From Pirellulales bacterium (GTDB taxonomy: Bacteria > Planctomycetota > Planctomycetia > Pirellulales > S012-138): a DNA stretch of 64,000 nucleotides. Of the stretch, positions 1,252-9,309 are shown piece after piece; position 1 is the first letter of the stretch; every line of letters begins with the position of its first letter. The position numbers were made by a program, and so were the translations under genes. The notes under the pieces are model-generated. The model did not search any database. It was not told the DNA's origin and saw nothing but the letters and a program-made list of their open reading frames with translations. The DNA is taken from NCBI GenBank assembly GCA_028066245.1, contig JALCBR010000002.1, positions 1 to 64,000 on the forward strand, given 5' to 3'.

Positions 1252-1941
1252 TCAAGCAAGGTTTGGATTAGTGCTTTGGCTATCGACCCCTGAGTCAATT
1301 TGGTTTCTGGTCGCAGGCATGAGTTTCCTGTAGTGAATGTAACCTTTCATCAGCATCAAGCTTTCACCCACTTCCCAAAGCGGATACGGACCTTGCATCT
1401 TGTTGGGGCGCCCTTGCTTGTCACGGGCAGTTATCGACATGTCATCTATGCCAGCGTATTGGCGCTGACCGACACGTTGCTCGAACATCAATACAATCCG
1501 ATTTCCATCGTCGTCCATATCGATGCATCGAAACGAAGTTGTTACCGATGATCTTTCGGATGCGAATTCTGGGCCATCCCTCGGGACGACGACGGACAAG
1601 CGATCAGCGGTCTGCAGAATCCGAAATGAGCCCGACCATTCATTCTCCGCGCGCCGTTCACGGTACCACTCCGAGTTTTCGCGTTCTGTGTGTTCTGCAG
1701 GAATCTCGTTGAGCGTAATCGAGTACTGCCACTGGCCAGAAAAATCGCACTCTCTATGAAAAAATCGCCAACCGAAGCGTCGGTATATCGTGTATCCACC
1801 ATGTACAATGACCATGTAGCAGATTGTGCTTGTCAACAAGAACGAAAGAAAATGGTCGCCAATCTCGGGTGGCTTTGAGGACCTGCTATCCATATAGCTG
1901 ATAATAGAAATAATCATGAAATACTGAGCACAAGCTGCCAC
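1252..1941 (-). CDS. Putative Cap15-like two-TM, beta-strand-rich membrane protein (orphan)
   Basis: The product has 229 residues from a GTG start. Two hydrophobic segments at about residues 2-17 and 31-50 are followed by a basic stretch (YRRFGWRFFHR) and then a beta-rich soluble region beginning DFSGQWQYS. That region continues with WSGSFRILQTADRLSVVV and SVTTSFRCIDMDDDGNRIVL and closes with GYIHYRKL. This order (2 TM, G-x-W strand, I-x-Q-T strand, closing G-x-I strand) resembles the S-2TMbeta/Cap15 family, whose CBASS members use a beta-barrel to sense cyclic nucleotides and act at the inner membrane. No CD-NTase or Cap2/Cap3 gene is visible nearby, so a defence role is not shown. The frame stays open 16 codons upstream of the GTG through more hydrophobic codons, so the true start may be a non-standard codon or the 5' end may be damaged. 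An unrelated lipocalin-like fold remains possible. Confidence 0.5.
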   Translation of the reverse strand: MAACAQYFMIISIISYMDSRSSKPPEIGDHFLSFLLTSTICYMVIVHGGYTIYRRFGWRFFHRECDFSGQWQYSITLNEIPAEHTERENSEWYRERRAENEWSGSFRILQTADRLSVVVPRDGPEFASERSSVTTSFRCIDMDDDGNRIVLMFEQRVGQRQYAGIDDMSITARDKQGRPNKMQGPYPLWEVGESLMLMKGYIHYRKLMPATRNQIDSGVDSQSTNPNLA

Positions 1942-2118
1942 CCCAATTAGAATAGCTAAGACAAAATTGGCATGATTGTCGAATCTTGTTCATCGCTGTT
2001 CCACCGTGTGTCACTTCTTGTTGCGATGCAGGACCGAACGTATTGACGGCTGCGCGGTGAATGACCTTCGTGATACGGCGATTATTCCGCGAAATGTGGG
2101 CAACGCTAGAAGCAGTTT

Positions 2119-2674: not shown

Positions 2675-5326
2675 ATGAATTTGTCGATTGGAAAACGACT
2701 TGGTGTTGGATTTGGCGTAGTGATTCTATTGATGGTTGTCGCCGCCATCATCATGCTCTGTCAACTCAATGGCGTCACGCAAGTGCAATCACAAGTACTT
2801 GATGAACGCCAGCCAGCGACTCAAGCGGCTGCAGAAGTCCTCGGCGGAATAAACGGCTCTTTAGCAAGCCTCCGTGGATACATCATTCTAGGCAACGAGC
2901 GGTTCAAGGCGAGCCGAGCACTCGAGTGGCAACAGATCGAGGAAAGCTTGGCTCGCCTTGACACCCTGATTTCAGCTTCGCAAAACGACGAAGATCGCCA
3001 GGTGATGGACGAATTGAAAACTGTCGTCAGTGAATTCAAAGAAGCCCAAGGCAGTGTGGAAGCAATTTGCCAAACCGGCGAGAATTTGCCTGCGATGAAG
3101 ATCCTCCTTGAGGATGCAGCGCCAACTGCCCAGCGCATGCTTGATTCAGTTACTGGCATGATTGACACCGAGAAAACACTTTCATCTGGAGCATCCCGCA
3201 AAGAGCTATTGGGAGTTCTTGCAGACTCGCGCGGTTCGCTGGCGGTTGGTTTGGCAGCCATTCGCGCCTACTTACTGACTGGCGACGAAGTTTGGGCAGA
3301 TTCATTCCGCAGCCGCTGGGAAGTTAATACGGCAAGATTCGATAGTCTATTGGCAATGCAGTCCCTTTTCGACGCGAGGCAAGCCGAGTTCTTTTCTGAG
3401 TACGTCATGGCTCGGACAGATTTCGCACCTCTCCCTGAGGAGATGTTTAAGATTCGAGCGTCAAAAGACTGGAATGTAGCGAACAAGTTGTTATCTGAAG
3501 AAGCTGCCCCTCGTGGTGCCAAAGCGAAACGTCTCATCGAGACGCTTCTGTCGAACCAACGCAATCTGCTCAAGCAAGATGCCGAATCGCTCAGCAGCGC
3601 TAGCTCTTCGATTTACTTGATCGTCGGTCTGTCAACTGGCATAAGCATCCTGATGGGGTTCGCAATCGCGTGGGCAATCTCACGTAGTGTTACCCGCCCA
3701 ATTACGGGAATGGTTGAGTTTGCCGAGAAAGTGGCAGCTGGCGATCTGTCCCAAAGATCGGACACAGGTCGGCGGGACGAACTTGGGAAGCTCGCCGAAG
3801 CACTCAATAAATCTGTCGCAGCCTCGGAACAAACGCTCATTGAAGTACGAAACGCATCGGAGCGAGAGAAAGAACTGCAGGCGGCTCAAGCGCAGGCGCA
3901 GAAACAAGAAGCAGAAGCTCAGCGGAAACGAGAAGATGCTGAACGAGAACGTCAACAACAAGACATTGAGGCGCAACGGAATCGTGAAGCAGCTGAGCGC
4001 GAACGCCAGAGTCAGTTGGCGAAAGAAGAGAATGATCGCCGAGAGGCAGAGGCCCTTCGTGACCGTGAGCGTGCCGATGAAGATCGACGGCAGGCAGCCA
4101 GTTTACAGAATAAAGTCGACAGCATGCTCAAAGCATTAAAACGTGTCGAAGTTGGTGACTACTCCGAGCCGTTGGACGTTTCTGGGTCAGACGCCATCGG
4201 CCAACTTGGGCACGGTTTGCAAAAATTCTTCGACGTTAAGAAAGAGAGTGAGGAGCAAGAACGTCACCTCGCAACGGAGCAAAAGCACCGAACCGATCAG
4301 TTGCGACAGAAAGTCGATGGACTTTTGGAAGTCGTCGCCGCTGCTGCTAGAGGCGACTTGAGCAAGACCGTCACAATTCAAGGAGACGAACCTGTCGACG
4401 AGTTGGCAGCTGGGATTGATTGTATGCTGCGGGATCTACGCAAATTGATAGGCGACATAGGTGAAAGTGCGGTCCAGTTCTCAGAGGGAGCTTCGACAAT
4501 TGCGGAGAACTCTCAAACTCTTGCACAAGGATCTCAAACGCAGAGTGCTTCTGTTGAGCAGATGAGTGCTGCGATTGAAGAGTTGACACGTAGCCTCAAC
4601 AAGGTCAACAAAAGCGCAAATGAGACAAATACGTTGGCGAACCAAGCGATGAAAGCCGCGCAAAAGGGAGATAACGCCGTTCAACAATCAGTTGCCGCGA
4701 TGGAACTCATTAAGAGTTCTTCAACGCAAATTGTCGAGATCATCCAAGTTATTTCTGAAATCGCAGGGCAAACCAATCTCTTGGCGCTCAATGCTGCAAT
4801 TGAGGCCGCTCGTGCCGGTGAGCATGGATTGGGATTTGCGGTCGTTGCGGATGAAGTTCGGAAACTCGCTGAGCGTTCCAATGACGCAGCGGGGGAAATC
4901 GCGAAGCTGATTACTGAATCAACAAAGCGCGTCGATGAAGGCGCAAGAATGAGTCAGGAAACGAGCGAGTCTTTGGAACAAATTATCACGAGTGTAAATG
5001 ACACGGCGGAAAATGTTTCTTCCATCGCCGAGGCAACATCGCTACAGACACAAAATGCCGATGAAGTGAAGTCAGCAATTCAGCAAGTTGCGAGTGTCGC
5101 TGAGCAAACAGCTGCCAATAGTGAGGAGATAGCGGCTAGTGGGGAACAACTTGATTCGCAAGCGACTTCTTTGCGGGCTATGGTCGAGCATTTCAATACG
5201 GGTGGAAGCGAGACTCACAAGCGCGATTCGCGTGCTGAAGACATGGCTTGGCATCGCGATGGCAAGCGGGCTCTTGCCGAATCGTCAGTCGCCGACTCCA
5301 CTGTATTTCACGCAACCGCGGGTTGA
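2675..5326 (+). CDS. Methyl-accepting chemotaxis protein with several HAMP units
   Basis: An 883-residue transmembrane chemoreceptor. TM1 spans about residues 10-31. A helical periplasmic sensor region of about 280 residues follows, then TM2 at about 312-336 and a HAMP unit with an R-P-I-T-G motif. A highly charged coiled coil rich in Q, E, R and A covers about 395-485. Two more HAMP-like repeats follow (each with a V-x-x-G-D-x-S or A-R-G-D-L-S motif), then the cytoplasmic signalling hairpin. Its tip, at about 695-735, contains [20 protein letters not shown] and [13 protein letters not shown], which are the CheA/CheW-contacting residues. No C-terminal CheR-binding pentapeptide is seen; the protein ends HATAG. 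The ligand is unknown. The gene sits alone between the tRNA-Leu half repeats with no che genes nearby, so it must work with a chemotaxis system encoded elsewhere. Stop at 5324-5326. Confidence 0.93.
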
Positions 5327-5808: not shown

Positions 5809-6105
5809 ATGGCCAAGTCACGATCTCCCAAACTTGATCGCTGAAAGCTCCGCAAGGCCTTTCGCGAAGACTTGGCGAACGTGTGGCAATACTGCCGCGA
5901 TCTGCACGCGGACCAAACGCCGTACGCTTTCGTGCTCTATGGACTGGAAGACATCCCCAGTTTGTCAGCGCACGTCTTAACGGAAGAGAGCTTGACACAA
6001 GTTGCTGAAGAATACATCGCCAAGGGTCACTACGAAACTCTCGACGAGTCCCGGGACGAGCTGCGCTACTCAATCGAAGAACCGCGGCGAAAAACAGGCG
6101 CCTAG
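5809..6105 (+). pseudogene. Broken DUF4303-like gene
   Basis: A start ATG at 5809 opens MAKSRSPKLDR, then meets TGA at 5842-5844. The same frame continues with KLRKAFREDLANVWQYCRDL, then YAFVLYGLEDIPSLSAHVLT and YIAKGHYETLDESRDELRYS, before ending RRKTGA at 6103-6105. The middle part has the aromatic, acidic style I associate with the N-terminal half of DUF4303 proteins, which are normally nearly twice as long and often sit beside toxin or immunity genes. With a stop after codon 11 and a missing C-terminal half this is most likely non-functional. A TTG start at 5872 giving a 77-residue protein is the alternative. The family call is from memory of the pattern and is moderate at best. Confidence 0.4.
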
Positions 6106-6219
6106 CAATGCGATCTGGCCCGGCTGCAACTCTTGCGATCGCCCCACTATTCTATTCCACCCTGCGGTGCTAGATGAAAAGTTCATGGTTTCAAGAACTT
6201 CAAAAAAAGGGCATAGACA

Positions 6220-6429
6220 ATGATTGGGATTGTCCTTGAATTCGTCCTCGGAATCGCAACTATCCTCCTAGGCGCGAAAGCGTTTACGCGGAATGGACTG
6301 CCGCTAGCACGTACGAAGAACCTTACGGGCACCCCGGCAATGGTGACAGGCATCGTATGCATGGTGTTGGGCGTCGCGTTTATAATCTGGGGTTTGCTTT
6401 TTGCGGCCGCCACGATTGTCAACCGATAG
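6220..6429 (+). CDS. Small two-TM membrane protein, unknown function
   Basis: A 69-residue protein beginning MIGIVLEFVLGIATILLGAK. It has one hydrophobic segment at about 2-19 and a second at about 42-66 (MVTGIVCMVLGVAFIIWGLL), joined by a short basic loop (RTKN). It ends at TAG 6427-6429. The start has a purine-rich leader (AAAAAAGGG) about 9 bp upstream. No homologous family is recognised. A long minus-strand frame (6183-6689) covers it, but the hydrophobic alternation and clean start favour this strand. It is cargo between the tRNA-Leu half repeats. Confidence 0.6.
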   Translation: MIGIVLEFVLGIATILLGAKAFTRNGLPLARTKNLTGTPAMVTGIVCMVLGVAFIIWGLLFAAATIVNR

Positions 6430-6870
6430 GTGAGCGCCAAGGAACGCCGTATGACGCTCACCGCTTCCCACGGAGCTTTCCCGCCACCGGGTGCGGAGAC
6501 CTTGGGGGTGGTACTCCCCATTGGCGTCACTCCAAGCACGTTTCCGTCAAGGCCAGCGTACTCGTCAAACGACCACTCCTTGATTGGAGGCAGTCGACGT
6601 TCGCCCGGTCGCCCATTTTGTTCTCCGGTAAAAAGAAAGGAAAAACTCGGTGCAATGAAAGACGCGGAAAATCCGCAGCGACCCCTCAAAAAATCAAAGC
6701 ATGGAGCTAGTGCTCCCTTTCTTGCCGAGTCTTCTTGCGAGCTTCATGGTCGCCTTCCTTTCTGGTTGTGGTGGAGTTGCCCAACAAGAAACCGGGTTCC
6801 CCAAGTGGCAGTGTCATCAAATTAGGACACTGCCTCAAATAGGGGGCACCAAAAACATTTTGGACAACGC
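6430..6870. other. Decayed region with a possible truncated lipoprotein start
   Basis: From 6701 a plus-strand frame begins MELVLPFLPSLLASFMVAFL and continues SGCGG, which is a good lipoprotein signal peptide with an L/S-G-C lipobox. After about 35 codons it loses protein character and runs into the tRNA-Leu fragment, so it may be a gene cut off by recombination at that site. The rest (6430-6700) holds overlapping frames on both strands with no recognisable domain. Confidence 0.3.
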
Positions 6871-6878
6871 GCTGGATC

Positions 6879-6931
6879 CAAAATCCAGTGGCCGCAAGGT
6901 CGTGTGGGTTCGAGTCCCACCTCCGGTACTC
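6879..6931 (+). repeat. tRNA-Leu(CAA) 3'-half, direct-repeat copy 2 (att-like)
   Basis: Identical over 53 bp to 2119-2171. Here the tRNA likeness extends a little further upstream: GCTGGATCC at 6871-6879 restores both sides of the anticodon stem (CTGGA/TCCAG), with a C where the invariant U33 should be. The D-arm and 5' acceptor strand are absent, so no functional tRNA is made. Confidence 0.85.
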
Positions 6932-7149
6932 TTGCCCAGCAAGGACTTACGACGATTCTTCTCGTCGGGCACTTCTTGGAATCTTGCTGAATAGGGGGCA
7001 AATTGGAGGCGCGCTTAGCTTGGAATTCGCTTGGGTCGCTCATCTGGCAGCGGTTGAGTTGATAAGCTTTCTCTACCTAAGAGATGTGTCTCATGCGGCA
7101 CACCTTGTGATTCTCTCCATCTTCCGCACCCTCGGCGATAAAACCTGTC

Positions 7150-9309
7150 ATGGCTGATCCCACGCTCGCCCTTTCTATGTTGGCAGATGATATTGGCGCA
7201 ATCACGCTCGATATGCCGGGCAAAGGCGCCAATGTGCTCTCCGCGTCTGTGTTGGATGAGCTGGAAAAGATCCTGGATGAGCTGGACGGCATGGCGAACT
7301 TGGCCGGTGTTGTTGTTCGCTCTGGTAAGCCGGGGATGTTTATCGCTGGAGCCGATGTTCGCGAGTTTGTTGCTGCGATCGAGCAAGGCGGAGTCGACGG
7401 TGTGAATCGACAGTGGGTGATCGATGTCTCCACGCGCGGGCAAAGTCTGTTCCGGCGTCTTGGCTCCAGCAACTACGTCTCGGTCGCCGCGATCGACGGC
7501 GTGGCGCTTGGCGGTGGTGCGGAGTTGGCCGTGTGGTGCGATCGGCGAATCATGTCCACCAACCCCAAGGCTGCTTTTGGGTTGCCGGAAGTAAAGCTGG
7601 GCATGTTTCCCGGCTGGGGTGGAACAGCACGCTTGCCACGGATCGTGGGTTTATCCAACGCCGTGGAAATGATCACGGGGGGCGAAAACGTCAACGCCGC
7701 GTCAGCCGAACAGATGGGGCTCACCAGTGACACGGCCGCTTCCGATGATCTTGATGCCGCTGCCATTCGTTTGATTCGGGCCGAACAGACAAGCGGACAA
7801 TACTTGCAGGACAGAGACGCTTGGGCCTTGCCCATCAGTATGACCGAAACGGAGCTGTACTTCCTGGGAGCAACGGCCAACGCTTACATCCAGCAACAAA
7901 CGAAAGGGAACTATCCCGCGCCGATCGCCGCGCTGGAATTGATGCTGGAATCTGCGGCGGGAGACGTTGACGCCGCATGCAAGTTGGAAGCGGAAGCTTT
8001 CGCCGATATCTTTGGCACGCCGGTCAACCGCTCGCTGCTGAACGTGTTCTTCCTGACGGACCGCAATAAGAAAGATCGCGGTGTTGCGGATCGATCGATC
8101 GAGCCGGGCAAGGTTTCGTCGCTCTCTGTCTTTGGGGCAGGGTTGATGGGGTCAGCGATTGCCGCGGCTTCAGTCAAGCGGGGGATCAACGTCGCCATCT
8201 CAGATGCCAATTCCGAGTCCTTGCAGCGCGGCGTCGCCAACTTGCTAGAGGAAGCTTCCTATGATCGAGTGATTGGCGGACCGAACGCGAAGAAATCGAT
8301 TGAGCTGGCTGCCAAAGTCAACGCCACGGAATCTCTCGCTGAGATGTGCGAAGCCGACATCGTGCTCGAGGCGATCGTCGAGAACGAGGACGTCAAAAAG
8401 AAGCTTTACGCCAGCTTTGAAGCCGATTTGCCTGCGAAAAAGATCCTGGCGACCAACACGTCAACTATTCCGTTGAAGAACCTTGCCGCCGGACTTAAGC
8501 ACCCGGAGCGGTTCTGCGGGATTCACTTCTTTAATCCCGTCCGCAAGATGAAGTTGGTTGAGGTCATTCGCGGACCGCAAACCTCTGATCAGACGATTGC
8601 CACTGCGGTGGCGTACGCAAAGTCGATTGGCAAATCACCGGTGGTGGTCAATGACGGACCGGGCTTTCTGGTCAACCGTTGCCTGTTGCCGTACATGAAC
8701 GAAGCTTTGGAGTTGATGCAGGATGGCGCTAGCATCAAGGCGATCGAGAAGGCGGCCAAGAGCTTTGGCATGCCGATGGGTCCGATTACGTTGTACGATG
8801 TTGTTGGCTTAGACACAGCTTACTTTGCCGGGATGACACTGGTGAATGCGTTCCCGGATCGGTGCGGTGTCTCCGCAATCATGGAAACCATGGTCAACGC
8901 CAAGCGGCTTGGCCAGAAGTCCAGAGTTGGCTTCTTCAAGTACACGGATCCCAGGAAAAAGGGCGAGCCTGACGCCAGCTTGGACGACCTGTTGCAGCCA
9001 GTCATGCGTGACAGACAAGACTTCACGCCGCAGCAGATCGAAGATCGATTGTTTCTACCGATGCTGTTGGAGGCCACGCGAATTCTTGAGGAAGGCATTG
9101 TCCGTGATCCGCGCGATGTTGATTTGGGCCTGATCTTCGGAATTGGCTTTCCGCCGTTTCTAGGTGGTCTTTTCTTTTGGGCGGATGCCTGTGGAGCGGA
9201 GAGCATCGTCGAGCGGCTGAAGCCGTATGAAGGGCTAGGCGAACGAATGCGGCCTACTGAAATGTTGCTACAGCTCGCATCATCTGGCGGAAAGTTCTAC
9301 GATGCGTAG
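7150..9309 (+). CDS. fadJ: Enoyl-CoA hydratase / 3-hydroxyacyl-CoA dehydrogenase (FadB/FadJ type)
   Basis: A 719-residue bifunctional fatty-acid beta-oxidation subunit. The N-terminal crotonase domain (about 1-290) has the oxyanion-hole and catalytic segments GGGAELAVWCDRR and LPEVKLGMFPGWGGTARL, which retain both glutamates used for hydration. After a linker, the dehydrogenase domain starts with the Rossmann motif SVFGAGLMGSAIAAASVKRG at about 326-345. Its catalytic histidine block GIHFFNPVRKMKLVE lies near residue 458, and NDGPGFLVNR starts the C-terminal helical domain. The length matches FadB/FadJ. The thiolase partner is not adjacent, which is common outside enterobacteria. Whether it is FadB-like (aerobic) or FadJ-like cannot be told from sequence alone. 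The upstream 6932-7149 interval holds no gene. Confidence 0.93.
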   Translation: MADPTLALSMLADDIGAITLDMPGKGANVLSASVLDELEKILDELDGMANLAGVVVRSGKPGMFIAGADVREFVAAIEQGGVDGVNRQWVIDVSTRGQSLFRRLGSSNYVSVAAIDGVALGGGAELAVWCDRRIMSTNPKAAFGLPEVKLGMFPGWGGTARLPRIVGLSNAVEMITGGENVNAASAEQMGLTSDTAASDDLDAAAIRLIRAEQTSGQYLQDRDAWALPISMTETELYFLGATANAYIQQQTKGNYPAPIAALELMLESAAGDVDAACKLEAEAFADIFGTPVNRSLLNVFFLTDRNKKDRGVADRSIEPGKVSSLSVFGAGLMGSAIAAASVKRGINVAISDANSESLQRGVANLLEEASYDRVIGGPNAKKSIELAAKVNATESLAEMCEADIVLEAIVENEDVKKKLYASFEADLPAKKILATNTSTIPLKNLAAGLKHPERFCGIHFFNPVRKMKLVEVIRGPQTSDQTIATAVAYAKSIGKSPVVVNDGPGFLVNRCLLPYMNEALELMQDGASIKAIEKAAKSFGMPMGPITLYDVVGLDTAYFAGMTLVNAFPDRCGVSAIMETMVNAKRLGQKSRVGFFKYTDPRKKGEPDASLDDLLQPVMRDRQDFTPQQIEDRLFLPMLLEATRILEEGIVRDPRDVDLGLIFGIGFPPFLGGLFFWADACGAESIVERLKPYEGLGERMRPTEMLLQLASSGGKFYDA

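Follow-up and report, generated by a model that had tools for sequence, protein, structure and literature searches.

A candidate remote relative of Cap15 (S-2TMbeta) membrane effectors at the end of a tRNA-Leu island in a Pirellulales bacterium, with no cyclase partner found

The window, as the whole stretch of 64,000 nucleotides analysed here is called, carries near its left end a minus-strand open reading frame at 1252-1941, which encodes 229 amino acids from a GTG codon and was found to be present and open, as an earlier note on this DNA had claimed. Upstream of this codon the frame stays open to 1968 (238 aa over 1252-1968, minus strand) and beyond, and no ATG, GTG or TTG occurs there. The extension at 1942-1968 (NFVLAILIGV...) encodes about nine residues of the first transmembrane helix, and the hydropathy peak starts in it; since these residues precede the GTG, the annotated codon is probably not the true start. 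An ATG behind the sequence GGTGGA is located at 1991-1993 (minus strand) and reads MNKIRQSCQF, out of frame with respect to the first helix. Joining the two requires a frame change of 1 nt near a T run at 1963-1966 of the plus strand. The break may be an assembly error or a lesion in this draft of 186 contigs; a programmed shift is less likely. Given the out-of-frame best start, together with the loss of a conserved Asn and His described below, the gene may be damaged. The length of the open frame is not decisive alone (245 codons, against a median of 128 and a maximum of 287 in shuffled sequences), nor is codon usage, by which the target frame was the best of six at a weak -0.03 bits per codon; the signal beyond chance is the profile match. 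The GC content of the gene is 48% against a window mean of 55%, which is consistent with imported DNA.

Two N-terminal membrane segments had been proposed for the protein, and both appeared in the hydropathy profile and as helices in AF2 models. Helix 1 (1885-1965, minus strand; residues ∼2-28, partly upstream of the GTG) was predicted by AF2 with low confidence, helix 2 occupies 1774-1863 on the minus strand (residues ∼36-65 of the 238-residue frame), and the pair directly precedes the beta domain. Helix 2 is followed by a Trp at residue 67, the juxtamembrane Trp that is invariant in the family alignments. The beta-rich domain, which aligned with the Cap15 receptor domain over 1327-1749 (minus strand), contains the motifs that had been read from it, namely F-S-G-Q-W (GxW), F-R-I-L-Q-T (IxQT) and a late K-G-Y-I-H-Y (GxI). 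Single-sequence AF2 modeling of the full-length protein produced two helices and then eight strands at low confidence (mean pLDDT 45.5); for the beta domain alone the mean pLDDT was 54.2 and the strand pattern was more broken. When these low-confidence models, full-length and domain, were compared with the PDB by Foldseek, no meaningful or confident match was obtained. The domain may fold as a barrel, which the models did not confirm. In a joint alignment, the Asn of the YxN motif and the His of the HxG motif, which are invariant in 14 Cap15 proteins, were absent from the window protein, as was the N-terminal HxYS motif.

The earlier note had likened the protein to S-2TMbeta/Cap15 effectors. 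This likeness was not reflected in curated models: no Pfam family, S-2TMbeta included, matched up to an E-value of 10, the extended frame likewise had no match, the protein stayed below all curated cut-offs with no hit in Pfam, NCBIfam or PADLOC, and a search of PDB sequences was also empty. A search of its own genome assembly with PF18153 was also without a match, and the gene is not assigned to that family. No BLAST-level relative was found among plasmids, among viral or genome contigs, or in ∼490 genomes of the phylum. One match in another genome (G047, E 0.009) was dismissed, as it sits within a 2061-codon open frame.

The likeness did stand in profile comparisons controlled with shuffled sequences and decoy reading frames. 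Cap15 proteins were collected from the phylum and from plasmids and aligned without the target before the comparison. With the first of these profiles, hhalign gave the window protein a score of 45.1 (probability 88.9, P 2.4e-6), compared with at most 22.6 for 300 shuffles of both halves and at most 19.7 for the other open reading frames of the window; one chimera of the real transmembrane part and a shuffled domain reached 42.3. The profile was then enlarged to 22 Cap15-family proteins, including divergent relatives and again leaving the target out. The full protein now scored 49.9 (probability 92.7, P 4.3e-7) and the beta domain alone 35.0 (P 6.3e-5), against 24.5 for the best shuffled domain and 31.1 for the best chimera of real transmembrane part and shuffled domain. 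HMMER scores with three alignments were 21.9, 23.5 and 25.0 bits, with best shuffles at 12.7-14.4; with the first alignment, of 14 sequences, the score of 17.8 bits was not above the best shuffle (18.4). A genome search with alignment A8 came back empty, though A8 scores the protein directly at 23.5 bits, and the first-look stage of the search is suspected to be the cause. Matches of the joint-profile searches to the protein's own assembly carry no weight as evidence, since the target was itself part of the alignments used. The supported match extends from helix 1 to about strand 5 and includes the juxtamembrane Trp, GxW, IxQ and a Ser-rich stretch in the order found in Cap15. The G-x-Y and G-x-I near the C-terminus also aligned jointly; as 13 of 150 shuffles of the C-terminal half did equally well, the match of strands 5-8 is suggestive only. 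The statistics support a remote relationship between the strongly diverged window protein and the S-2TMbeta (Cap15/OptE) group, as far as sequence profiles can indicate.

The gene had been placed in an island next to tRNA-Leu debris, and this location was borne out. An exact 53-nt repeat, corresponding to the 3' end of tRNA-Leu(CAA), is present on the plus strand at 2119-2171 (att copy 1, the island end adjoining the gene) and at 6879-6931 (att copy 2, the outer island end), and the 5' end of the Cap15-like gene is ∼180 bp from copy 1. The intact tRNA-Leu(CAA) is located on a different contig, C178, of this assembly, where it is followed by a tyrosine integrase (Phage_integrase) gene. The orientation is consistent with an island that extends from the tRNA and its integrase as far as att copy 1 and has the Cap15-like gene at its end. 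Between the two copies lies another segment, which holds a chemoreceptor gene (2675-5326). Around copy 2, a stretch of approximately 220 bp (window 6860-7077) is 89% identical to the tRNA region that precedes the integrase on C178; this similarity suggests repeated integration. Further into the island on C178 there is a Gp49-like/HTH_3 pair resembling a toxin-antitoxin system, and the opposite flank of the tRNA carries a DarT and macro-domain (DarG-like) pair; the two pairs occupy 1042-1431, 750-1124 and 6076-7786 (minus strand) of locus L008. The assembly lacks the island's middle: base 1 of the window is also the first base of its contig, 1251 bp from the gene, which leaves no sequence to the left of the window, and the ends of C178 and of contig C45 do not overlap. 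A partial reading frame running off the contig start (2-493, minus strand) had no Pfam match above the cut-off; it may resemble the N-terminus of planctomycete Ser/Thr kinases.

The earlier note had also stated that no nucleotidyltransferase lies nearby. None was found near the gene, and the models used detected none in the assembly, which is 97.5% complete and lacks part of the island: PF18144 (SMODS) returned no CD-NTase, and PF18182 (mCpol, OptS) had no match at E≤1. PF18144 also misses a 370-aa cyclase encoded beside Cap15 in another genome (G667; L022 425-1546, minus strand), which PADLOC cyclase models match at E 6e-107, so its silence alone does not show that CBASS is absent. A profile of this 370-aa cyclase type found nothing in the assembly and recovered the control in G667. 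When the window and C178 were scanned with both cyclase profiles, nothing rose above chance. The cyclase was directly adjacent in all cyclase-paired Cap15 loci examined; here both neighboring positions are visible and neither holds one. The description of the gene as an orphan thus holds, by the CD-NTase and mCpol searches, for the assembly as far as it extends. As the synthases were sought and not found, the gene was not filed as a member of CBASS or Panoptes.

Joint-profile searches of the class and order identified relatives, among them four clearer Cap15-family genes of the phylum without a visible cyclase, in genomes G489, G505, G565 and G1000. The G489 and G505 proteins are 86% identical and belong to one syntenic locus in two genomes of one genus (L035 7133-7966 and L034 7795-8547, both minus strand), flanked by a pseudouridine-synthase-like gene on one side and a PEP-CTERM/kinase region on the other. 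The other two genes (L033 2241-2936 and L039 1417-2091, both minus strand) lie on short contigs with partly visible surroundings, 3.6 kb in G565 and 5 kb in G1000; the L039 gene is directly upstream of one whose product resembles LivJ-like periplasmic ligand-binding proteins. No cyclase was found at any of the four loci (the locus only for G1000; 7-8 kb to either side for G489 and G505), and two models found none in the G489, G505 and G565 assemblies. A Cap15 profile from which they had been left out scored the four proteins at 45-84 bits, compared with 21.9 for the window protein. The Asn and His are missing from the G489, G505 and G565 proteins as well, and the G1000 protein keeps the His of HxG. 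In a phylogenetic tree the cyclase-less label appeared at more than one place; the window protein could not be placed, its end branch having a length of 5.2 changes per site. Among plasmids, Cap15 genes of Psychrobacter and Macrococcus (L014 1441-2073 and L017 1297-1974) had no cyclase within ∼1.4 kb, the flanks covered being 1.3-1.5 kb on each side, and the next gene on the Macrococcus plasmid encodes a PBECR3-type nuclease. No description of a stand-alone Cap15 or S-2TMbeta group was found in the open literature, which does not prove that there is none.

Our preferred reading, to which we give about an even chance (∼0.5), is that the window gene encodes a divergent, cyclase-less S-2TMbeta membrane effector, the last gene of an island integrated at tRNA-Leu, which has no CD-NTase or mCpol partner and is possibly decaying. 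The two N-terminal helices would anchor the protein in the inner membrane and the C-terminal beta domain would act as the sensor of a small ligand or partner. Cap15 oligomerises and breaches the membrane upon nucleotide binding, and OptE of the Panoptes system, restrained by a cyclic nucleotide from the neighboring mCpol, does so upon loss of that nucleotide (PMC12657218, PMC12657230). By analogy, a changed state of the ligand or partner may lead to oligomerisation and membrane breach in the window protein, as on binding in Cap15 or on loss in OptE, and the cue would come from elsewhere in the cell. The parts needed by an effector appear to be kept, and the receptor domain appears to have drifted. 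A sponge or decoy, which the earlier note had also considered, was rejected: the two-helix membrane anchor is present, and the ligand domain is without the conserved Asn and His.

Three other explanations were weighed, and their likelihoods overlap with one another because the two that turn on decay or on a missing partner also presuppose homology. The resemblance might be convergent: the protein would then combine two membrane helices with a beta domain, calycin-like or other, and have no relation to Cap15. Calycins also show GxW in their first strand, and the failure of curated families to match, the lack of significance of strands 5-8 by themselves and the low-confidence AF2 and Foldseek results, which do not point to Cap15, would all agree with convergence. 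Against it stand the profile-profile P-values, 4e-7 for the protein and 6e-5 when only the beta domain is used, and the much lower scores of shuffles and of the window's other reading frames; we consider it unlikely. Slightly less unlikely is a relic: an old CBASS or Panoptes operon would have lost its synthase and kept its Cap15-type effector, whose gene is now drifting and whose protein is no longer made whole. The best start being out of frame with helix 1, the lost Asn and His, the very long end branch, the weak codon signal and the lack of a relative close enough to reveal conservation are in keeping with such decay; on the other side, the 245-codon frame is still free of stops, GxW, IxQ and the transmembrane helices are retained, and the frame break could be an error of the draft assembly.

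It is considerably more improbable that the gene is no orphan at all, its synthase being either encoded in the stretch of the island that the assembly lacks or of a cyclase type that the models missed. The nearby contig start and the non-overlapping ends of C178 and C45 leave room for such a gene, and one Cap15-linked cyclase type has been shown to escape PF18144; yet both neighboring positions, where the cyclase lies in every cyclase-paired locus examined, are empty of one here, and searching the assembly with a profile of the type that escapes PF18144 was negative. Beyond the preferred reading of the window gene as a cyclase-less effector, a broader proposal, which we put forward only tentatively, is that the phylum has stand-alone S-2TMbeta proteins, chromosomally fixed or mobile depending on the lineage, that act outside CBASS and Panoptes on a cue that does not come from a dedicated cyclase, with the window gene as an extreme member.

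Cap15 and OptE are each paired with an adjacently encoded nucleotide synthase under opposite logic, activation in the one and restraint in the other (PMC12657218, PMC12657230). If the broader proposal is true, members kept without a synthase would imply receptors that respond to a common cellular signal or have acquired a different trigger. The window gene is the weaker case for this because it is possibly damaged, and the more interesting result is that the phylum has clearer cyclase-less members, chiefly those of G489 and G505. The syntenic G489/G505 pair makes a synthase-free function testable and suits the study of stand-alone S-2TMbeta function better than the window gene does.

Compared with known systems, the window protein shares with the CBASS effector Cap15 (PF18153 and PF23471; PDB 7n34/7n35) the two transmembrane helices, the juxtamembrane Trp, GxW, IxQ and the Ser-rich stretch, and differs from it in the missing YxN Asn, HxG His and N-terminal HxYS and in that no cyclase partner was found. 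To OptE (2TMbeta) it is likened, by description only, in superfamily architecture; OptE exemplifies a family member that can act without a nucleotide switching it on, and unlike OptE the window gene has no mCpol in its assembly. The G489, G505, G565 and G1000 proteins have the same two transmembrane helices and S-2TMbeta domain and are likewise cyclase-less in the available DNA. They are much closer to Cap15 than the window protein is, and the G489 and G505 genes occupy ordinary chromosomal surroundings, whereas the window gene is island cargo.
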